DNA of 64,000 nucleotides from an uncultured Sphingomonadaceae bacterium (GTDB taxonomy: Bacteria; Pseudomonadota; Alphaproteobacteria; Sphingomonadales; Sphingomonadaceae). Of the stretch, positions 5,484-18,526 are shown one piece after another. The stretch lies in assembly GCA_947493215.1 (NCBI GenBank), contig CANLQE010000001.1, positions 1,675,404 to 1,739,403 on the forward strand, in the 5' to 3' direction. The position numbers and the translations under genes were made by a program. The notes below the pieces were generated by a model. It searched no databases and was not told where the DNA came from. It was given only the letters and a program-made list of their open reading frames with translations. Positions within the stretch are counted from its first letter, which is position 1, and every line of letters starts with the position of its first letter.

Positions 5484-6674
5484 TCAGATCGCTTTTTCAT
5501 AAACAGTGTAGACCCGATTGATCTTGGATTCGATCGCGTCCGCAATGGCCACCATTCCTTGATTATCTTCCAGCACCCAACCCAATTCCCCTCGCACGGC
5601 GCCATATTTGGCAACCGCTTCGCGGCGGATATATTCGATCATCATGAAGGCCATTTGGCTTGCCATTCGGCTGTTCTGTAGTTCCTTCATGACGCCCATT
5701 AATGGCACACGCATGGTCGGCGATTTGGGAAATTTCAGCCACCAGAGTAGTTTTGCCCAGTTAAACGGGAGCAAACTTCCGTTCATATCCTTGGTGCGAT
5801 CATTGAGGTCGGGGAGCGTCATCAAAAAAGCGACTGGCTTGCCCTCCCATTCTGCGATCATGATCAGGTCTTCGTAGACAATTGGTTTCAGCTTTACCCC
5901 GACATGGTCAATTTCATGGTCGGTAAGCGGCACAAAGCCCCAGTTATCCGACCACGCATCGTTCAAAATATTCATGATGATTTTCGCGTCACGATCAAAA
6001 TGCGACTTATCAACCTTGCGAAGTTTCAGCTTGCTGCTGCGTTCCCCGGATTTGACGATCCTGTCGATCAATGGCGGTAAACCATTGTCGATCGGCAAAT
6101 CATAAGTAACAAGCTCTTTGACGCTTTTATAGCCTTCCTCTTCAATCCAGGCCTGATATTCGGCTTTGTGATGACCCATCATGACGGTTGGACTATGATC
6201 ATGGCCGGTAGTCAGTAGACCTGGTTCGTCCCAGACAGATAGGCTCAGCGGCGCGATCACGCGATGCATTCCTTGTTCTTTCAGCCACGTTTCAGCGGCG
6301 CTGATCAAGGCTTTGACAGCAGCGTCACTCTCGGCTTCTAACAAACCCCAATTGCCGGTGCCTGGCCCCAAGCCCTTCTCGACCGGCTGCTCCAATGCGA
6401 GATGATCGATATGCGCGCTGATCCGGCCGACAGTCTGACCATCTTGTTCCGCTAGGAAAAGCTGTACTGTCGCATGTTCAAAGAACGGGTTCTTCTTCGG
6501 GGTAAGCAGCGCATAGGTTTCGGATTTCAGCGGCGGCACCCAATACGGGTCGTTCGCGTATATACGATAGGGGAGTTCTACAAAGCGCTTGCGCTGTGCC
6601 TTGGTAGTGACGGGTTGAATGACTATATGCGATGACACTGTAGTTATTTGCACCTTTAAAGCGATTATTTGCAC
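5484..6674 (-). CDS. GNAT-fold N-acyltransferase, probable bacterial ceramide synthase (bCerS-like)
   Basis: About 396 residues, starting at GTG; two more in-frame GTGs (6653, 6638) lie close by, so the exact start is uncertain. The N-terminal motif FVELPYRIYANDPYWVPPL and the following NPFFEHA belong to a GNAT-related family often annotated N-acetyltransferase or dATP pyrophosphohydrolase. From memory, the Caulobacter ceramide synthase encoded in its spt locus belongs to this family. The enzyme would N-acylate the sphingoid base. The location 8 kb from spt and next to a desaturase and lipid permeases supports the role. Family call is strong; the bCerS role is inference. Confidence 0.7.
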   Translation of the reverse strand: MQIIALKVQITTVSSHIVIQPVTTKAQRKRFVELPYRIYANDPYWVPPLKSETYALLTPKKNPFFEHATVQLFLAEQDGQTVGRISAHIDHLALEQPVEKGLGPGTGNWGLLEAESDAAVKALISAAETWLKEQGMHRVIAPLSLSVWDEPGLLTTGHDHSPTVMMGHHKAEYQAWIEEEGYKSVKELVTYDLPIDNGLPPLIDRIVKSGERSSKLKLRKVDKSHFDRDAKIIMNILNDAWSDNWGFVPLTDHEIDHVGVKLKPIVYEDLIMIAEWEGKPVAFLMTLPDLNDRTKDMNGSLLPFNWAKLLWWLKFPKSPTMRVPLMGVMKELQNSRMASQMAFMMIEYIRREAVAKYGAVRGELGWVLEDNQGMVAIADAIESKINRVYTVYEKAI

Positions 6675-6826: not shown

Positions 6827-7945
6827 ATGAAACATTCTCCCTCTCTGGCCACAGAGGCCGCTACATCACCGGATGCCGTTACTGCAAAAGCTTCCACTTT
6901 TGATGATAATGAGTTGATCCGCACCGCTGCAAAAGTCACCCGTGATCTTAATGCGGTTCGTCCCCTGGTTTATTGGTCTGATTTACTGGCTTCCGCGGTT
7001 GTCGGATATGGCGCAATGGCCGCCGCAATCATGCTTGAAAATATAGGGCTCGCGGTTCTGGCTGCCGTTGTTTCGATTCTCGCGCTCTATCGCGCAGGCA
7101 GCTTCATTCACGAACTGACCCATATCCGGCGCGGATCGATGCGTGGTTTCCATTTTGGTTGGAATGCGCTGATCGGCGTTCCGTTGTTGCTGCCCTCTTT
7201 CATGTATGAAGGTATTCACAATCTCCATCACGCCCGCACGCGCTATGGTACGATTGAGGATCCTGAATATCTGCCGCTGGCCCTTATGAAGCCTTACACA
7301 GTCCCGCTTTTTGTGTTGGTATCTGCCTTGGCGCCAGTGGGTTTGTTCGTCCGCTATGCGGTGTTGGCACCTCTATCAGCGATCATCCCCCCATTGCGTA
7401 AAATTGTCGTCGAACGCTATTCCGGATTGATTATAAATCCAGAGTTTCGTCGTCGTCCACCCGAAGGCGATTTTAAAACGCAATGGTATGCGCAGGAAAT
7501 TGCTGCGAGCATCTGGGCGATTGCTTTGTTGACCGCCGTCGCTACCGGATTTCTGCCTATGCGCGCGTTTCTGATCATGGTTGCAATTGCTGCCGGATCG
7601 GTTGTTCTCAACCAGATACGTACGCTAGTGGCGCATCTGTGGGAAAATGACGGCGAAGTAATGAGCGTGACGGAGCAATATCTCGATAGCGTGAATGTCC
7701 CGCCGCCAGCTTTTCTGCCGGCTTTGTGGGCCCCTGTTGGCTTGCGCTATCATGCTTTGCACCATCTGCTACCCGGTGTGCCTTATCACGCCCTCGGGGA
7801 AGCACACCGCCGCATCGCAGAAGCTTTGCCCAAAGATTCGACTTATTATCGCGCCAATCATACCAGCCTTTGGGGCTTGGTGGCTGGGCTGGTCCGGGGC
7901 AGTTCCGGTCACGCTGCGTCAAGCCAACCCGGCTCTGCCAGCTAG
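6827..7945 (+). CDS. Membrane fatty acid desaturase-family protein
   Basis: 372 residues with three histidine boxes: HELTH (95-99), HNLHH (131-135) and HALHH (309-313), the di-iron site of integral-membrane desaturases and hydroxylases. Hydrophobic segments lie around residues 55-90, 110-125, 155-190 and 225-265. It is divergent from the bCerS-like gene (152-base shared upstream region) and convergent with lptG (2 bases between the stops). Known substrates of the family include acyl lipids, sphingolipids and carotenoids. In this locus a sphingoid-base or ceramide desaturase is plausible, but that is inference. Confidence 0.85.
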   Translation: MKHSPSLATEAATSPDAVTAKASTFDDNELIRTAAKVTRDLNAVRPLVYWSDLLASAVVGYGAMAAAIMLENIGLAVLAAVVSILALYRAGSFIHELTHIRRGSMRGFHFGWNALIGVPLLLPSFMYEGIHNLHHARTRYGTIEDPEYLPLALMKPYTVPLFVLVSALAPVGLFVRYAVLAPLSAIIPPLRKIVVERYSGLIINPEFRRRPPEGDFKTQWYAQEIAASIWAIALLTAVATGFLPMRAFLIMVAIAAGSVVLNQIRTLVAHLWENDGEVMSVTEQYLDSVNVPPPAFLPALWAPVGLRYHALHHLLPGVPYHALGEAHRRIAEALPKDSTYYRANHTSLWGLVAGLVRGSSGHAASSQPGSAS

Positions 7946-7947
7946 GC

Positions 7948-9036
7948 TTATTCCTCCGTCCGGATCAGCACTGTTTCGCCGATCAGAAAGAATAATATAA
8001 AGGGCGCCCAAGCCGCTAATATTGGCGGGTAAGCACCAATTGTTCCCATGGCGAGAGAGAAATTATCGGCCACAAAATAGGCAAAGCCTAGCGCCATGCC
8101 TAGCACTGCGCGGACGAACAACTGTCCTGACCGCGCTAGGCCAAAGGCGGCAACTGCGCCCAGCAAGGGCATTAATATCGCGGATAAAGGCCCTGAAATT
8201 TTGTGCCACAAGCTGGCTTCCAGTCCCATTGTTGGCCGCCCGGCTTCCTTTAACTCAGCTATGGCTGACCTCAGTTGGATAAAAGATAGGCCGTCTGCTT
8301 TGACATCGGCCAACGTAAACTGATCGGGGCGCAACGTATCGCCGATTGTAATGCTGTCCTTTTGTTCTTCGGTGCCGGTTAGCACGTTAAACTGGGTGAC
8401 ATCGGTTATGGTCCAGGACGACCCCGTGAAGCGTGCTTCTTTACCCTGCATGAGGCTACGCAATCCATTATTGGTCCGGTCATAGATGGTGATGTCTCGC
8501 AGAACCACGTCGGTTCCGCGGCCGGTTACGGTTTTTGCGTTGACGAGGTTATTGTCGTCCCGAACCCAGACATTGGTCCGTACGTTACTCGCGGCCGGTA
8601 TCGGTCCATATTCAACCTTTTCCCAAGCTGATAGCTTTGCGGTAGTTGGGGCAACGACGATCTCGTTAAACATAAAAGACACGATTGCAACGAGCATGCT
8701 GGCGATGATCAAAGGCGCGAGAATCTGATGCGCGGATAGCCCGCCAGCCTTCATCGAGATGACTTCGCTATTCTGGTTCAGCGTCGCGGCGGTCACAATT
8801 GTACCTAACAACACAGCAAAGGGCAGGAAGCGTTGGATGAGCTGCGGTGCGCGCCAAGTGACATATGTCCAAAGCTCACTCTGACCATTGCCTTCTTGGC
8901 CGAGAATGCGGCCGCTTTCACCCAGCAGGTCCAATGCTTGCAATACCAAAACGAGCAGGGCGAGGACTGCCAGGGTGCGCAGCATCAGCATTTTGGCCAT
9001 ATAAAAAGCCAATGTCCGCGATGGAAAAAAGTCCAT
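7948..9036 (-). CDS. lptG: LptG-type permease (YjgP/YjgQ family)
   Basis: 362 residues with the family layout: two N-terminal membrane helices and an amphipathic region, a periplasmic jellyroll-like domain (about residues 130-260), and three or four C-terminal helices. LptG pairs with LptF and the ATPase LptB to pull lipopolysaccharide from the inner membrane. Here lptF lies just upstream (39 bases) on the same strand, so lptF-lptG is an operon. LPS-lacking sphingomonads carry glycosphingolipids instead, so the cargo may be a sphingolipid (inference; see findings). Confidence 0.85.
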   Translation of the reverse strand: MDFFPSRTLAFYMAKMLMLRTLAVLALLVLVLQALDLLGESGRILGQEGNGQSELWTYVTWRAPQLIQRFLPFAVLLGTIVTAATLNQNSEVISMKAGGLSAHQILAPLIIASMLVAIVSFMFNEIVVAPTTAKLSAWEKVEYGPIPAASNVRTNVWVRDDNNLVNAKTVTGRGTDVVLRDITIYDRTNNGLRSLMQGKEARFTGSSWTITDVTQFNVLTGTEEQKDSITIGDTLRPDQFTLADVKADGLSFIQLRSAIAELKEAGRPTMGLEASLWHKISGPLSAILMPLLGAVAAFGLARSGQLFVRAVLGMALGFAYFVADNFSLAMGTIGAYPPILAAWAPFILFFLIGETVLIRTEE

Positions 9037-9075: not shown

Positions 9076-10287
9076 TTATTCTTTAACATCTGCTCGCTTC
9101 CGATTGAAATTGAGTATGCCTTTAAAAACGCCACCGAATTTTGCGAAAGCTTTTTCAAGTTGGCCAATGGGTTGCCCGCCCGGAACATGAGCGACCATGT
9201 GGTACATCCAGATGATCAGGCCACCAAACAACAAGAATGGCACCCATAGAGCGATGATCGGATCGACAATCCCCAGTGCGCCCAGGTCTTCCCCATATTG
9301 ATTGACCTTATGGTAAGTCACAATCATGACAATAGAAATGAAAACCCCCAGGGCTGAATTCGATCTTTTGGGCGGAATCGCCAGTGCGAGCGCCAGCAGC
9401 GGCATCAGTAACATCATTACCACTTCGACCATGCGGTAATGAAAATTCGCCCGGCTCTGGTTGCGCTCTGTTACAGAGCGATCCTGATCCAGACCCACCC
9501 TGACCAGTTCTGGTATTGTATATTCCAGATCTGCCCCGCCTCTGGATCGAAAAGCTTCGATATCCGGAAGATCAATGGGCAAATCGTGGCTGCTAAAGCT
9601 CAATATACGCGGTTTATCATAATTGGGGGAATCGTGGATTAGTACGCCTCGGGACAAGCGCAATATGATGGTATCGGGATCATCAGTGGCCAAAAATTGA
9701 CCAGTTTCAGACGTTACCGAGACGATTTGGCCTGACTTATTTTCCGCCCTAACAAACATCCCGCTCAGTTTCGTGCCATTGTCGCGGCTTTCTTCGATCC
9801 GCATTGTCATGCGGGAGCCTAAATTGGTGAATTCGCCGACTTTAATCGAGGCCCCTAGTGCGCCAGACCGCAATTCGAAACGCAATTCCTCGTAATAATA
9901 GCGTGACAACGGTTGAATGAACCCGACCAGCGCGAGGTTGATCAGCATCAAAACGACCGCAAACATGTAAGGGACTTTTAAAAGGCGACCATAACCCTGA
10001 CCGACAGCCCGGAAAACGTCCAATTCCGAGCTTAAAGCAAGTTTGCGAAAAGCCAGCAATATGCCGAGCAAAAGGCCTATCGGAATGCCAAGTGAGAGAT
10101 ATTCAGGAATAAGATTGGCCAGCATCCGCCAGACAACGCTGACCGGGCCGCCTTCTGCTGCGACAAAGTCAAACAGCCGCAGCATTTTTTCAAGCACCAA
10201 TAACATTGCAGCGATGACCAGCGTGCTAAACAGCGGAACGGCAATCAAACGGGCGATATAACGGTCGGTAGAACTTAGAAATTTCAA
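9076..10287 (-). CDS. lptF: LptF-type permease (YjgP/YjgQ family)
   Basis: 403 residues. It begins with DRYIARLIAVPL and a membrane helix, then a second helix with SLGIPIGLLLGILLAFRKLALSSELDVFRA, the characteristic family stretch including the cytoplasmic coupling helix. The periplasmic domain covers about residues 140-285 and is followed by C-terminal helices. It forms an operon with lptG. Upstream, the DUF2141 operon is divergent, sharing about 125 bases. No lptA, B, C or D lies in the window, so the ATPase partner is encoded elsewhere. Confidence 0.85.
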   Translation of the reverse strand: MKFLSSTDRYIARLIAVPLFSTLVIAAMLLVLEKMLRLFDFVAAEGGPVSVVWRMLANLIPEYLSLGIPIGLLLGILLAFRKLALSSELDVFRAVGQGYGRLLKVPYMFAVVLMLINLALVGFIQPLSRYYYEELRFELRSGALGASIKVGEFTNLGSRMTMRIEESRDNGTKLSGMFVRAENKSGQIVSVTSETGQFLATDDPDTIILRLSRGVLIHDSPNYDKPRILSFSSHDLPIDLPDIEAFRSRGGADLEYTIPELVRVGLDQDRSVTERNQSRANFHYRMVEVVMMLLMPLLALALAIPPKRSNSALGVFISIVMIVTYHKVNQYGEDLGALGIVDPIIALWVPFLLFGGLIIWMYHMVAHVPGGQPIGQLEKAFAKFGGVFKGILNFNRKRADVKE

Positions 10288-10412
10288 CTTATCGTCGCCC
10301 TCTCACCATGTTTCTGCCGCAAATCATATCCATAACCACAATCATATCAGGGGGCTGATTCTCTATTCGCAGCAGTTTGAACGCGGGTATAACGACTAGG
10401 AGTATTTTCGTC

Positions 10413-10895
10413 ATGTTGAAATTTGCAGCGTCTTTTGCGCTTTCAACCATCCTTTTGGCTGTGCCCGTGCCTGCGACAGCCGCAGGCCAGAAGATTTCCA
10501 ATGATCTGGACAAATGTCGGGCAGGTAACGGCCCGGCAGTTTTGGTAACATTAAACGGCGTAAAAGCGTCGGCCGGTAAAATACGCGTGCAAAGCTATCG
10601 CGGCACCAAGGCTGAATGGCTGAAAAAAGGCGCGTGGATCAATCGGATTGAAACGCCGGCAAAGATCAACAGCATGACTTTTTGCATGCCCGTTCCCTCG
10701 AGCGGAACTTACGGCATCGCGGTGCGCCATGATTTGAACGGCAATGGCAAGACCGACATAAGATCGGATGGCGGTGGCATGTCGAACAATCCCAGCATCA
10801 ATATCTTCAATCTGGGAAAGCCCAGTTACAAGAAAACCAAATTTGCCGTGGGCAATGAAGTGAAATCGATCAGCATCAAAATGAAATATCTGTGA
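10413..10895 (+). CDS. DUF2141 family exported protein
   Basis: 160 residues from the ATG preceded by AGGAG ten bases upstream; a TTG 36 bases earlier is less likely. The signal peptide runs to about residue 23 (ATAAG). The mature part shows DUF2141 features: LVTLNGVK and GKIRVQSY near the start, a central FCMPVPSSGTYGIAVRHDLNGNGKTD, which looks like a calcium-binding-type loop, and a C-terminal IKMKYL. The family is periplasmic or surface-associated with no settled function. It is first in a tight four-gene operon with a lipid kinase. Confidence 0.8.
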   Translation: MLKFAASFALSTILLAVPVPATAAGQKISNDLDKCRAGNGPAVLVTLNGVKASAGKIRVQSYRGTKAEWLKKGAWINRIETPAKINSMTFCMPVPSSGTYGIAVRHDLNGNGKTDIRSDGGGMSNNPSINIFNLGKPSYKKTKFAVGNEVKSISIKMKYL

Positions 10896-10930: not shown

Positions 10931-11905
10931 ATGGCCAATGTAGCGCTACTTTCTAATCCACACTCTACGGGAAACCGTGCGATTTTACCGGAGGTGCGCT
11001 CATATTGCGTCAAGAACAGCGATGTATTCCATTACGAAGTAGACGCGGTTGATGAAATTAGGAAAGCGCTTCAAACCATTGCCAAAGTGAAGCCCAAGGT
11101 GCTGGTTATTAATGGCGGGGACGGAACTGTGCAGGCCGCCCTTACGGAATTGCATCAGGGCGGGCATTTTGGTGATAATCCACCACCAGTCGCAGTGTTG
11201 CCCAATGGCAAGACCAACCTGATTGCTCTGGATCTCGGAGCAGAAGGAAGTCCACTAAAGGCGCTGGAACGCATAGTCGAAATGGCAAAGCATGATCTGC
11301 ATGAGCATCTCGTTAATCGCGAGCTGATTGCTTTATCTGACGGGGGTAAAGACAGTAAAGTCGTACTGGGCATGTTCCTAGGTGGTGCAGGCTTATCAGA
11401 ATTTATTCTCTATTGCCGTCACAAAATTTATCCACTGGGGCTTCCCAATGCGGCATCTCATATATTGACAGTTTTTGCGGCACTGGCCTCGGTTTTGTTT
11501 GGAATAAGAGCCAAGTTCTTGCCGAATAAGCCATCGCCGATCAGTATTTCATTGATTAAAAAGGGGCAATATCAGGGAAATTTTGCAATTTTGATCGTGA
11601 CGACCCTAGAAAAATTACTATTGATGCGGCGCTTGACCCAGTCCCGTGGCAAACACGGACGCCTGCAATTGATGGCGATTGACCAGAAACCAGCAGCTTT
11701 GGTTCGCTTTTTACTATCAGCCTTATTTGGCCGTCTTGGTAAAAACGTGCAAAAAGGTATTCACCTTGAGCAGGGCGATATGATCCGCATAGAAGGTAAG
11801 AATAGCAATGTCGTAATGGACGGCGAATTGTTTCGGGCCCAAGAAGGTCAGCCGATTGTTTTGAAATCTACCAAACCAGTGTCTTTCCTTCGCCTCGCTG
11901 CTTAG
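10931..11905 (+). CDS. DagK-type lipid kinase, candidate ceramide kinase (CpgB-like)
   Basis: 324 residues, diacylglycerol/sphingosine kinase catalytic domain. NGGDGT (61-66) is the nucleotide-binding signature. The second loop reads LPNGKTNLIA (90-99), where most DagK proteins have a GTxND form; this is a divergence worth noting. No membrane helix is evident. It transfers phosphate from ATP to a lipid hydroxyl at the inner membrane. From memory, a related kinase in the Caulobacter sphingolipid locus (CpgB) phosphorylates ceramide. Only 15 bases separate it from the Tam41-like gene. The kinase fold is well supported; ceramide as substrate is inference from context. Confidence 0.8.
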   Translation: MANVALLSNPHSTGNRAILPEVRSYCVKNSDVFHYEVDAVDEIRKALQTIAKVKPKVLVINGGDGTVQAALTELHQGGHFGDNPPPVAVLPNGKTNLIALDLGAEGSPLKALERIVEMAKHDLHEHLVNRELIALSDGGKDSKVVLGMFLGGAGLSEFILYCRHKIYPLGLPNAASHILTVFAALASVLFGIRAKFLPNKPSPISISLIKKGQYQGNFAILIVTTLEKLLLMRRLTQSRGKHGRLQLMAIDQKPAALVRFLLSALFGRLGKNVQKGIHLEQGDMIRIEGKNSNVVMDGELFRAQEGQPIVLKSTKPVSFLRLAA

Positions 11906-11920
11906 GCTATCATCCGACGG

Positions 11921-12823
11921 GTGCGTTACCTTAAACCTCTTGTAGAAGCGGAACTGGCAGAGCCAGTCGAACCGCGTGTGGTTGCATTTGCTCAGTCGAT
12001 TGCGGCGCAATATGGTGACGCTTCTCGGGCGGTGCTGTTTTACGGTTCGTGTCTGAGGACAACTGAACTCGAAGGGCAGATGCTTGATTTTTATCTGATC
12101 GTTTCCAGCTATGAAGCGGCCTATGGAAAAAGCTGGTTGGTCCAGGCAAACAAGCTGTTGCCACCCAATGTTTTCCCGGCCGAACATGATGGCCTGGTCG
12201 CAAAATTAGCGGTGTTGAGCGAAGAGGATTTCCACAGGTTGAACGGACCAGAAGCCAGTGCGGTGAGCGTTTGGGCGCGCTTTGCACAGCCGTCACGGCT
12301 GGTGTGGTGCGCAGACGAAGTTGCTCAGAAAAAAACCGTCGCGGCAATTTCGCGCGCACCGATAACCTTGTTTGAACTGGCCCTGCCGGTTCTTGGTATC
12401 CAACCGCAGACACCGATACGGATATTCCATCGCGGCTTTGAACTGACCTATGGCGCCGAATTACGGGCGGAGCGCGGTAACCGGCCCGGTTCGGTCGTCG
12501 ATTCTGATTTGGAACGTTATGAACGCTTTGGTCTCGCAACCATGGCGACGATGCAGGATCAGAATCCGTCGGAGGCCTTAGACTTGTCATTCGATGAAGC
12601 TGAAAAGCGCTGGAAAACGCTACGCCGTAACGGCAAACTGCTTACATTGGCACGCTTAGCGAAGGCGTCGGGAACCTATGCGGGCGGGATCGACTATCTT
12701 GCGTGGAAGATTAACCGCCACGCCGGAACAAATTACGAGATCAAGCCTTGGCAGCGCAAATGGCCGATATTGGGCGCGCTGACGATGTTGCCGCGATTGT
12801 TTGCCGGCGGGGCGATCAAATAG
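11921..12823 (+). CDS. Tam41-like nucleotidyltransferase (possible lipid cytidylyltransferase)
   Basis: 300 residues from GTG. VLFYGSCLR (38-46) followed by MLDFYLIV (54-61) matches the YGSG...MLDF pattern of Tam41, the mitochondrial phosphatidate cytidylyltransferase; the Asp at 56 would be a metal ligand. Further matches by eye are WARFAQPSRL in the middle, GFELTYGAELR with a following ERYERFG, and C-terminal LARLAKASGTYAGGIDYLAWK. Tam41 makes CDP-diacylglycerol from phosphatidate and CTP. Placed directly after a lipid kinase in a sphingolipid locus, it could activate ceramide-1-phosphate to CDP-ceramide. Fold call moderate to good; reaction is inference. Confidence 0.65.
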   Translation: MRYLKPLVEAELAEPVEPRVVAFAQSIAAQYGDASRAVLFYGSCLRTTELEGQMLDFYLIVSSYEAAYGKSWLVQANKLLPPNVFPAEHDGLVAKLAVLSEEDFHRLNGPEASAVSVWARFAQPSRLVWCADEVAQKKTVAAISRAPITLFELALPVLGIQPQTPIRIFHRGFELTYGAELRAERGNRPGSVVDSDLERYERFGLATMATMQDQNPSEALDLSFDEAEKRWKTLRRNGKLLTLARLAKASGTYAGGIDYLAWKINRHAGTNYEIKPWQRKWPILGALTMLPRLFAGGAIK

Positions 12824-14081: not shown

Positions 14082-15281
14082 TCAAATTGCTCCAACGGCT
14101 TTGCCAGCCGCTTCAAACATGCCCAAAATCTGGTCGACTTGTTCAGACGTGTGCTCGGCGCAGAGTGAGCAGCGGAGCAGGGTCATGTTGGCGGGTGTTG
14201 CCGGAGGCCGCGCCAGATTGACGTAGAGGCCTTCAGCGAGCAGGGCTTGCCACATCATTGCACCGCGTTCGAGATCCGGCATGATGACCGCGATGATGGC
14301 ACTTTGCGCCTCGGGCGTTCCGATTTCAAAGCCTAGATCGCGCAGACCTTTGTGCAGTTTCTTGCTATTTTCCCACAAATGCGCACGTTTATTGCCGCTA
14401 TGCATCAGTTTGCGGATCGAGGTGCTGGCGGTTGCCATCACGCTTGGCGGCAACGAGGCGGTAAACACATAGGGCCGACAGACCAACCGCATGATTTCAA
14501 ATTTCGGATGATTGGATACGCAGAAACCGCCTACCGTTCCAACCGACTTGCTGAATGTGCCGATGACGAAATCTACATCGTCGATAACGCCTTGATCCTC
14601 GCAGACACCTCTACCGTTATCGCCAATAAAGCCCATGCTGTGCGCTTCATCAACCAATGTCATGGCCCCGTTTTCTTTACAGACGCGGATCATTTCCTTG
14701 AGCGGTGCGACATCGCCAAGCATGGAATAGACGCCCTCGAGAACCACAAGCTTGCCGGCTTCAGCGGGCAGGCGTTTGAGGCGTTTTTCCAATGCTTCCA
14801 CATCATTGTGCCGGAATGCCACGATTTCTGCATTGCCCATCGCGCAGCCGTCATAAATGGATGCATGGCTGTCGATGTCGAGAATGACATAATCGCCTTT
14901 GCCGGCAAGCGTAGAGATAATGCCCAGATTTGCCTGATAGCCTGTGGAAAAGACCATAGCATGGTCCATATCGTAAAATTCTTTGAGCGCTTCTTCACAA
15001 TCTTTGTGCGGACTATAAGTGCCGTTCAGGAGGCGGCTACCGGTTGTTCCGGAACCAAAATCCTTTAGTGCTGTCAGGCCCGCTTCCATAACGTCGTCAT
15101 CAAAGGTCATTCCCATGTAATTATACGTGCCGAGCAGGATGGTTTCTTTGCCATTGCAGACGGCTATGGTAGGGGATTTCACCTCTTCCATGACCAGCGC
15201 ATACGGGTCTTTGACACCAGTAGCGAGAAGGGTCTCGCGTTCCTGGATTAGCGGATCGAATTTACTCAAAAGGTCAGTCAT
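14082..15281 (-). CDS. spt: Serine palmitoyltransferase
   Basis: 399 residues, alpha-oxoamine synthase family of PLP enzymes. LLGTYNYMGM near residue 50, FGSGTTGSRLLNGT (75-88), DSHAS with His139, VDEAHSMG with Asp211 and His214, and GTFSKSVG with the PLP lysine at 245 are all present. The length matches soluble homodimeric Spt of Sphingomonas. It condenses serine with an acyl thioester to 3-ketosphinganine in the cytoplasm, the committed step of sphingolipid synthesis. The ATG follows AGAGAGA. The paired acyl carrier protein lies 99 bases upstream. KBL and ALAS are relatives, but the acp and CerR neighbours favour Spt. Confidence 0.92.
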   Translation of the reverse strand: MTDLLSKFDPLIQERETLLATGVKDPYALVMEEVKSPTIAVCNGKETILLGTYNYMGMTFDDDVMEAGLTALKDFGSGTTGSRLLNGTYSPHKDCEEALKEFYDMDHAMVFSTGYQANLGIISTLAGKGDYVILDIDSHASIYDGCAMGNAEIVAFRHNDVEALEKRLKRLPAEAGKLVVLEGVYSMLGDVAPLKEMIRVCKENGAMTLVDEAHSMGFIGDNGRGVCEDQGVIDDVDFVIGTFSKSVGTVGGFCVSNHPKFEIMRLVCRPYVFTASLPPSVMATASTSIRKLMHSGNKRAHLWENSKKLHKGLRDLGFEIGTPEAQSAIIAVIMPDLERGAMMWQALLAEGLYVNLARPPATPANMTLLRCSLCAEHTSEQVDQILGMFEAAGKAVGAI

Positions 15282-15380: not shown

Positions 15381-15626
15381 CTAGTTATCCATTAATTTGG
15401 CAACCGCGTCGGCCAGCTGGCCAACGGTTTCAATTTCGGCCTGCATATTCATGGTTATGATGATATCAAATTCATCTTCCACGGCTGCGACAAAATCCAT
15501 GACAGTCAGGCTGTCCCACTCAAGATCGCCAGCAAAAGTGGTCGCATCTTTCAATGCAACGCCCTTGTTGTTGAACGGTCCGATCAAGGTCTCAACCTTG
15601 CTCATAATTTCTTCGCGACTTGCCAT
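15381..15626 (-). CDS. Acyl carrier protein of the sphingolipid locus
   Basis: 81 residues. The phosphopantetheine site is DLEWDSLTVMDF, with Ser39 in DSL as the attachment residue, followed by the recognition helix AAVEDEFDI. It differs from housekeeping AcpP, which normally has GADSLDTVEL. It probably presents the acyl chain to Spt. Gene order acp-spt on one strand matches the Caulobacter sphingolipid locus as I recall it. No acyl-ACP synthetase is encoded within this window. Confidence 0.9.
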   Translation of the reverse strand: MASREEIMSKVETLIGPFNNKGVALKDATTFAGDLEWDSLTVMDFVAAVEDEFDIIITMNMQAEIETVGQLADAVAKLMDN

Positions 15627-17599: not shown

Positions 17600-18526
17600 T
17601 CAGAGCCAATCGTTCTGACGGTACCATTTGGCGGTGTCTTTCAGACCCTGCCGCGTTTCTATTTGGGCCGTCCACAATTCGGGCGGCAGGCGTTTGGCAG
17701 GATCAACTGTCCAGTCATCATGGCAGAAATAACTCACCCGGTCCTCCGTCAACTTAGCCTTGTCACGGCGCATAAGACGATCCGCCTTGGCACCCAGTTC
17801 CAGCAGGAATTTCGGCGTTGCGATGGGTTTGATCCGTTTGCCAATTGCCCAACCAATCGCCTTGGCAAAACTGGTCTGGGTCCAACCGCCGGTTTTGCCA
17901 TCGTCTATCTCAAAAATTGCAGCGGTCAGGTCTTCATGTTCGGGAATGATGGTCATTAACGCACGCGAGAGATCATCAACATGAATTGCCGAAAGACGAC
18001 CATCGGCGTCAGGGGGCAGGGTAACAAAGCCCATTTTTGCCATTTTGAACAGTTCCAGCATTTCACCGTCTCCGGGGCCGTAGATTGCTGGTGGCCGAAT
18101 GATCGTCCAATCGAGCCCGCTGCTTTTCACGATTTTCTCGGCTTTGGCTTTGGTTTCGCCGTAAATGGAGAGCGCCGGCAGGGTCGCCGCGAGTGATGAA
18201 ACGTGAATGAAGCGCTGGCATCCGGCTTTTTTCGCGGCCTCTACAACAGCCAATGTTCCCGCAACATTACCGGCTTCAAAGCCTTCGCGGGTGGGTGCAT
18301 TGACCACGCCGGCTATATGAATCACCACATCAGCGCCAGTGCACAACACGCTGAGACTTGCCGGATTATCCAACGCGCCACGAACCCATGTCACATTGGG
18401 ACGGTCATCTTGAGTCCGACGGGTCAGCGCACGGACCGGAAAACCAGCGCGCACGGCGAGGTTGAGCAAATGCCCGCCCACAAAACCAGTCGCGCCGGTT
18501 ATCGCCAGAGTTTGCTTGGTCCGCAT
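17600..18526 (-). CDS. NAD(P)-dependent epimerase/dehydratase-family reductase, probable CerR-like ceramide reductase
   Basis: 308 residues, extended short-chain dehydrogenase. GATGFVG (11-17) binds the cofactor, HVSSLAA is the Ser strand, and the catalytic YxxxK is YGETK (122-126), followed by RPPAIYGPGD. In the Caulobacter sphingolipid locus an enzyme of this family, as I recall, reduces the 3-keto group of the ceramide precursor. Location between spt and proB, with the other ceramide genes near, supports that role here. The general reductase call is firm; the substrate is inference. Confidence 0.75.
   Translation of the reverse strand: MRTKQTLAITGATGFVGGHLLNLAVRAGFPVRALTRRTQDDRPNVTWVRGALDNPASLSVLCTGADVVIHIAGVVNAPTREGFEAGNVAGTLAVVEAAKKAGCQRFIHVSSLAATLPALSIYGETKAKAEKIVKSSGLDWTIIRPPAIYGPGDGEMLELFKMAKMGFVTLPPDADGRLSAIHVDDLSRALMTIIPEHEDLTAAIFEIDDGKTGGWTQTSFAKAIGWAIGKRIKPIATPKFLLELGAKADRLMRRDKAKLTEDRVSYFCHDDWTVDPAKRLPPELWTAQIETRQGLKDTAKWYRQNDWL

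Follow-up and report, generated by a model that had tools for sequence, protein, structure and literature searches.

A lipid kinase and a Tam41-like nucleotidyltransferase paired in sphingomonad sphingolipid loci, and a possible CDP-ceramide step towards ceramide phosphoglycerate

The gene pair

The two genes considered here lie side by side in a 64,000 nt stretch of DNA from an uncultured Sphingomonadaceae bacterium (GCA_947493215.1, contig CANLQE010000001.1, positions 1,675,404 to 1,739,403 of the forward strand), the whole of which we refer to as the window. The first gene (10931–11905, + strand) starts with ATG and encodes a 324-residue lipid kinase of the CpgB, or ceramide kinase, type, which matches the Pfam family DAGK_cat (PF00781, 1.8e-14) and carries GGDG at residues 62–65, within an NGGDGT motif at residues 61–66, followed by LPNGKTNLIA at residues 90–99. 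It is separated by 15 bases from a second gene on the same strand (11921–12823, +), which starts with GTG and encodes a 300-residue Tam41-like nucleotidyltransferase of the CpgC type, a predicted ceramide-1-phosphate activating enzyme with YGSCLR at residues 41–46 and MLDFYLIV at residues 54–61. A cupin gene and an enoyl-CoA hydratase gene separate this pair from spt, the serine palmitoyltransferase gene (14082–15281, − strand; NCBIfam SerpalmtaseAlphaP, NF047603, 794.7 bits against a cut-off of 670). The original prediction for this DNA had described a DagK-fold kinase 15 bases from a YGSCLR...MLDFYLIV protein in a sphingolipid locus, and both open reading frames, their motifs and the gap between them are confirmed. 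The pair itself is of an already known kind, and the point of interest is a possible cytidine diphosphate (CDP)-ceramide step. Loci and genomes are given numbered handles (L and G) where they need to be told apart.

Relationship of the nucleotidyltransferase to Tam41

Both a family profile and a predicted fold support a Tam41-like character for the nucleotidyltransferase family. When the profile of an alignment of 51 CpgC-type members was compared with solved structures, Tam41 (6ig2/6ig4) came first with an E-value of 0.0021 and a generic nucleotidyltransferase next at 0.04, so that the similarity to Tam41 for which a sensitive profile search had been set beforehand as a test was indeed found. 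The AlphaFold2 model of the window protein (mean pLDDT 92.7) agreed, as the five best Foldseek matches in the PDB were all Tam41 chains, with probability 1.00 and TM-scores of 0.45–0.55 by query length. These were headed by the bacterial Tam41 7ecd with bound cytidine triphosphate (CTP)-Mg (E 1.2e-7, TM 0.55/0.60) and followed by four mitochondrial Tam41 chains, and antibiotic nucleotidyltransferases ranked below them with TM-scores of around 0.3.

The active site is of the same character. D56 is present in 51/51 members, and position 58, where the usual second acid of the nucleotidyltransferase motif would stand, is acidic in none of them (tyrosine in 49, phenylalanine in one and cysteine in one). 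Tam41 retains one of the three nucleotidyltransferase acids (PMC11646218), and an invariant D56 together with a non-acidic position 58 therefore fits this one-acid feature. In the profile alignment each of the invariant residues K95, R120, P124, R182 and E184 is matched in Tam41 by the same amino acid, whereas an invariant E180 stands opposite an Asp. Residues 224–300 of the window protein have a net charge of +10, and the last 78 residues range from +8 to +19 across the 51 members; the strongest hydrophobic moments lie outside this basic C-terminal part, and a membrane helix there is unproven. The family thus resembles Tam41/Mmp37 (PF09139; 6ig2, 6ig4, 7ecd) in predicted fold, in keeping one acid of the motif, in the aligned Lys, Arg and Glu residues and in its basic C-terminal part, but differs in being paired with a ceramide-type kinase, from which a sphingolipid substrate would be expected. 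The CdsA-type CDP-diacylglycerol synthases catalyse the same kind of reaction, the transfer of cytidine monophosphate (CMP) to a lipid phosphate, but are integral membrane proteins with no sequence or structural relation to Tam41 (PMC7018664).

Pairing with the kinase among relatives

The pairing of kinase and nucleotidyltransferase is far from chance. Among 134 nucleotidyltransferase loci, to which some genomes contribute both a short and a long version, a kinase match was found in 120, on the same strand in all 120 and with a gap of less than 150 bases in 119 of them. A separate scan of genome contigs covered 52 loci, mostly from Sphingorhabdus, Parasphingorhabdus and other Sphingomonadales, and within the stretch examined the kinase was seen in 49 of these and spt in 45. 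The gene for a DUF2141 protein lies no more than 300 bases from the kinase in 46 of the 47 loci of L031–L082 that have both a kinase and upstream room.

In an alignment of 30 kinases, of which the other 29 are 21–65% identical to that of the window, the residues G63, D64 and G65 and D297 and G298 are invariant. The loop that follows takes the form TNL[IV]A in 87 of the 120 kinase reading frames and the form GTxND[FLV] in none. The divergent loop LPNGKTNLIA had been read as a sign of a substrate other than diacylglycerol, a reading we abandon: the loop marks a subfamily, and it is not proof that diacylglycerol is excluded because purified CpgB of Caulobacter phosphorylates diacylglycerol about as well as ceramide (PMC10331486).

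The pair is also kept together away from spt. The family draw described below includes many matches of just 34–41% identity. Twelve genomes were hand-picked from these because their nucleotidyltransferase is remote from spt, and in every case the two genes share a contig at a distance of approximately 99 kb or more. The kinase (found with a profile of its family) adjoins the nucleotidyltransferase in 12/12, the YGS...LDFY motif is kept in 12/12 and DUF2141 stands beside the pair in 11/12.

Co-occurrence with sphingolipid genes

The nucleotidyltransferase is tied to ceramide synthesis, a conclusion supported by its distribution in two draws of genomes. In the class draw of 240 alphaproteobacterial genomes (spt defined by NF047603 at E<=1e-120 and CpgA by a profile at E<=1e-40) the distribution is nested: spt occurs in 32 genomes, the CpgC-type enzyme in 28, all within the 32, and CpgA in 17, all within the 28. 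Fisher tests gave 1e-32 and 5e-19 for this nesting, values that take no account of kinship between the genomes, a few of which are incomplete. Within these 28 genomes spt lies within 10 kb of the nucleotidyltransferase in 20, on another contig in seven and 82 kb away in one. CpgA is absent from 11 of the 28, which agrees with ceramide phosphoglycerate (CPG) being made before, and without, CpgA.

The family draw of 199 genomes contains the nucleotidyltransferase in 158 and spt in 194, with 40 genomes having spt alone. Occurrence of the pair in genomes lacking spt, named in advance as something that would speak against a sphingolipid role, was not seen in the class draw (28/28 with spt) and was rare in the family draw, where 154/158 have spt and four (G294, G320, G389 and G413) do not at the threshold used. 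Three of these four genomes are 66–70% complete, and G294, which is 96% complete, has a weak match at 4.1e-15.

Correspondence to cpgB and cpgC of Caulobacter

Judged by gene order and content, the pair corresponds to cpgB and cpgC of Caulobacter crescentus. CpgB (CCNA_01218, CC_1160) is the proven ceramide kinase of that organism (PMC10331486), CpgC (CCNA_01219, CC_1161) is needed there for CPG, and CpgA and CpgD are needed for CPG2 (PMC11324152, PMC12275187), with CpgD making CDP-glycerate and preferring CTP (PMC12275187). The published order runs CC_1165–CC_1162 (aasR, cerR, acpR, spt), CC_1161 (cpgC), CC_1160 (cpgB), CC_1159 (cpgA), CC_1158, CC_1157, CC_1156 and CC_1155 (lptF2, lptG2), CC_1154 (cerS), CC_1153 and CC_1152 (cpgD) (PMC11324152). 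Genes in distant GC-rich loci were identified by tblastn, and the clearest example of their order is L119, which reads aasR, SDR, acyl carrier protein (ACP), spt, nucleotidyltransferase, kinase, CDP-alcohol transferase, metallophosphoesterase, LptF, LptG, second CDP-alcohol transferase, fatty acid hydroxylase, GNAT protein and MobA-like protein. This is the Caulobacter order save for the second CDP-alcohol transferase and the hydroxylase; nothing corresponding to CC_1157 or CC_1152 was seen in this locus, and the MobA-like family is by position CC_1153-like. Patterns made from Caulobacter primers found no match in 82 loci, 27 genomes and a further set of 14 genomes.

The window kinase is thus like CpgB in being of the DAGK type, in its GGDG motif and in having a CpgC-type gene next to it and spt close by, and CpgB homologues have been published as accompanying sphingolipid genes. 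It differs in that no cpgA follows the pair in the window, the two kinases being compared by gene order and content. The nucleotidyltransferase holds the place of CpgC in the same gene order, differing in that cpgA and the cpgD-like gene are found approximately 825 kb away from it. Olea-Ozuna et al. in 2024 noted for CC_1161 an InterPro domain of CDP-diacylglycerol synthase, a hint that fits the Tam41 result, and suggested that it might form a nucleoside diphosphate-activated ceramide, leaving the nucleotide open (PMC11324152). The CDP-ceramide idea in the original prediction was therefore anticipated in its general form. A preprint of May 2026 describes CpgC as acting via an unidentified mechanism (PMC13228409).

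A second locus and other CDP-alcohol transferases

The window was said to hold no CDP-alcohol transferase, and none was found in it, either by tblastn with two CpgA-type queries or among the four genome-wide matches to PF01066, which all lie outside it. The genome as a whole does possess a CpgA-type enzyme (L141:8250-9344, −), which shares 47% identity with its CpgA-type counterpart in L131, in a second locus approximately 825 kb from the window. The same locus contains a CC_1153-like gene of the MobA type (L141:4817-5605, +), a LicC-like NTP_transferase that is CpgD-like (L141:7065-7808, +) and a HIT-domain gene whose match is just below the Pfam cut-off (L141:7811-8278, −). The LicC-like protein is related to 1jyk and 4jd0, the latter being the top structure match named for CpgD (PMC12275187). 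From its gene content the window's genome would appear to have the makings of CPG2 split over two loci, and both halves stand together in L159, where LicC-like, HIT, cpgA, kinase, nucleotidyltransferase and CC_1153-like genes form one group. The LicC-like genes of L159 and of the window's genome are 67% identical.

Two of the remaining CDP-alcohol transferases of this genome are by their look presumably PgsA and PssA, and beyond the three resembling PgsA, PssA and CpgA there is a protein of 201 residues (L139:1453-2058, −). Of the 17 genomes that have CpgA, five (G037, G093, G163, G165 and G186) contain a second, divergent CpgA-like paralogue, which in L119:16127-17335, L123:2560-3789 and L135:3464-4735 is flanked by lptG and the gene for the fatty acid hydroxylase. 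This paralogue is a candidate for the missing first transferase of the pathway.

HIT proteins often act on nucleotides. The HIT gene is the immediate neighbour of cpgA both in L159 (L159:5562-5936) and in the genome of the window. In L118, L131 and L136 it comes just before lptF, and in the last two of these it takes the place of CC_1157. It may be part of the pathway, and CC_1157 has been held to be probably unrelated to it (PMC11324152).

A predicted route through CDP-ceramide and its alternatives

The reading that we favour, at a probability of about 0.6, is that the pair is the sphingomonad version of CpgB and CpgC, in which the nucleotidyltransferase makes CDP-ceramide and a transferase then gives CPG. 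The CpgB-type kinase would convert ceramide to ceramide-1-phosphate, as shown for CpgB of Caulobacter, and the Tam41-like enzyme would most likely transfer CMP from CTP to ceramide-1-phosphate, yielding CDP-ceramide and pyrophosphate. A putative CDP-alcohol phosphotransferase would swap CMP for glycerate or phosphoglycerate to give CPG. The CpgD-like and CpgA-like enzymes of the second locus would then add a second phosphoglycerate, as the activity of CpgD and the mutants of Caulobacter suggest, and the window's LptF/LptG proteins may move the lipid outward. For the more general claim, that CpgC proteins are CDP-ceramide synthases, a branch of the Tam41 superfamily acting on ceramide-1-phosphate instead of phosphatidate and followed by a CDP-ceramide:glycerate phosphotransferase, we would put the chances at about even. 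Candidates for that phosphotransferase are the second CpgA-like paralogue and a housekeeping CDP-alcohol transferase.

If true, this would mean that bacteria use a liponucleotide for sphingolipids too, in a route parallel to the one that leads through CDP-diacylglycerol to phospholipids. The conversion of ceramide-1-phosphate to CPG is a gap in a pathway that helps Caulobacter to live without lipopolysaccharide and sensitises it to polymyxins, and a Tam41-type active site reduces this gap to one simple test, of CTP with ceramide-1-phosphate. No paper on CDP-ceramide was found in the open-access literature under the names tried, a search whose scope left out most subscription journals. What is new here is the fold and active-site evidence, the nested distribution, the maintenance of the pair away from spt and the second locus.

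Several observations weigh against this interpretation. The nucleotide and lipid substrates of every CpgC are predictions, as are the use of CTP and the CDP-ceramide product, and the step that would use CDP-ceramide has no known enzyme; of the earlier proposal that the kinase makes ceramide-1-phosphate and its neighbour a CDP-lipid, the first half gains from the kinase having the place and type of CpgB and the second remains conditional. Orthology to the Caulobacter genes is argued from gene order, gene content and the orthologues that have been reported in Sphingomonas wittichii and Zymomonas mobilis, both of which are also Sphingomonadales (PMC11324152). The likeness to Tam41 proposed at the outset is borne out by the profile, the predicted fold and one member above the PF09139 cut-off, but the window nucleotidyltransferase itself has no Pfam match at E<=1, its identity to Tam41 is 12–14% and the superposition is loose (root-mean-square deviation 5.8–9.5). 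PF09139 matches two of the 51 family members, L022 at 29 bits against a cut-off of 24 and L024 just below it at 23.2, so that 50 of the 51, the window protein among them, do not reach it. It has no match in the window's own genome and none in 14 control genomes, Caulobacter vibrioides among them, though such silence is no proof of absence. A PF09139 search of 398 genomes of the phylum gave one weak match (2.2e-4, below the cut-off), which we rejected as an independent Tam41 reference since the gene is of the CpgC type and has genes of the cpgB and cpgA types next to it. A phmmer search with one distant CpgC gave nothing useful, and a search of viral contigs found no match. As regards the pairing, 14 of the 134 nucleotidyltransferase loci have no kinase match. 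In three of these (L014, L129 and L020) a profile detects part of a kinase where the stretch ends, and several others are truncated because the contig stops. Neither L134 nor L135 (19.9 kb each) contains a kinase, profile search included, and L021, L022, L023 and L095 likewise have CpgC and no kinase found by profile within the stretch examined. L134 comes from the genome whose CpgC (L022) passes the Tam41 cut-off.

Other explanations differ mainly in what CpgC is taken to do with ceramide-1-phosphate. In the model that later papers ascribe to Zik et al., CpgC itself joins glycerate to ceramide-1-phosphate without free CDP-ceramide, and it is in keeping with this that CpgC is, besides the kinase, the only gene reported as needed for CPG and that no separate transferase has been named. 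We consider the model unlikely, as such a reaction has been called energetically not very favourable (PMC11324152) and the predicted fold points to an enzyme that moves nucleotidyl groups. The fold and the pathway also bear on the idea that the nucleotide used by CpgC is not CTP and that the product is, for instance, guanosine diphosphate- or uridine diphosphate-ceramide: the nucleoside triphosphate was left open in PMC11324152 and nucleotide choice is not revealed by the sequence here, but the nearest folds bind CTP (7ecd, 6ig2) and the pathway partner CpgD prefers it (PMC12275187), making this quite improbable.

More distant from CDP-ceramide synthesis are two readings in which the enzyme has no sphingolipid substrate. 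That it is an extra CDP-diacylglycerol synthase like the bacterial and mitochondrial Tam41, with the kinase recycling diacylglycerol, can call on the synthesis of CDP-diacylglycerol by known Tam41 enzymes and on the phosphorylation of diacylglycerol by CpgB in vitro (PMC10331486). It is disfavoured, and in our estimate very improbable, given that the gene accompanies spt in both draws and that in Caulobacter loss of cpgC removes CPG and loss of cpgB leaves phosphatidate unchanged. An antibiotic- or protein-modifying nucleotidyltransferase lying beside spt by chance is suggested by the only NCBIfam matches of the window protein, which are to Lnu(H) and ANT(4')-Ia, below the cut-off and at best 0.042, and by the ANT structures that come next in the fold ranking. 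We reject an enzyme of the antibiotic type, for which the chances are slight in the extreme, because ANT ranks below Tam41 among the fold matches and the gene accompanies spt, to which can be added the conserved pairing with the kinase and the lack of CPG in cpgC mutants of Caulobacter.

Neighbouring genes of the window

The genes around the pair are largely those of a sphingolipid cluster. Upstream of spt is an ACP gene (15381–15626, −; open reading frame of 81 residues), whose product shows 40% identity over 45 residues to the spt-adjoining ACP of L133. An SDR protein with Epimerase/NAD-binding Pfam matches (17600–18526, −) is from its position the likely reductase CerR, and its homologues adjoin aasR, ACP and spt in distant clusters. 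A GNAT-like protein (5484–6674, −), with a weak Acetyltransf_1 match below the cut-off, is likewise by position the likely bacterial ceramide synthase CerS, its homologues adjoining CC_1153-like and hydroxylase genes in distant clusters, which is the place of CC_1154. Two permeases of the LptF/LptG family (7948–9036, −, PF03739 2.1e-70; 9076–10287, −, PF03739 1.6e-59) are the only ones that a PF03739 search found in this genome, and both stand beside the sphingolipid genes; for the Caulobacter cluster, second versions of lptF and lptG have been described (PMC11324152). The gene preceding the kinase on the same strand encodes the DUF2141 protein (10377–10895, +; PF09912 9.4e-22), and scans for promoters and terminators around the pair gave nothing telling.

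Two further genes may act on the lipid itself. A membrane desaturase/hydroxylase (6827–7945, +; FA_desaturase 1.1e-28), is a possible modifier of the ceramide acyl chain, and many close relatives have its gene next to that of the GNAT protein. A cytochrome P450 gene (16341–17531, −), located between spt and the SDR gene, might serve in sphingolipid hydroxylation, and was seen among the 52 scanned loci in ten close relatives only (L031–L039 and L041).

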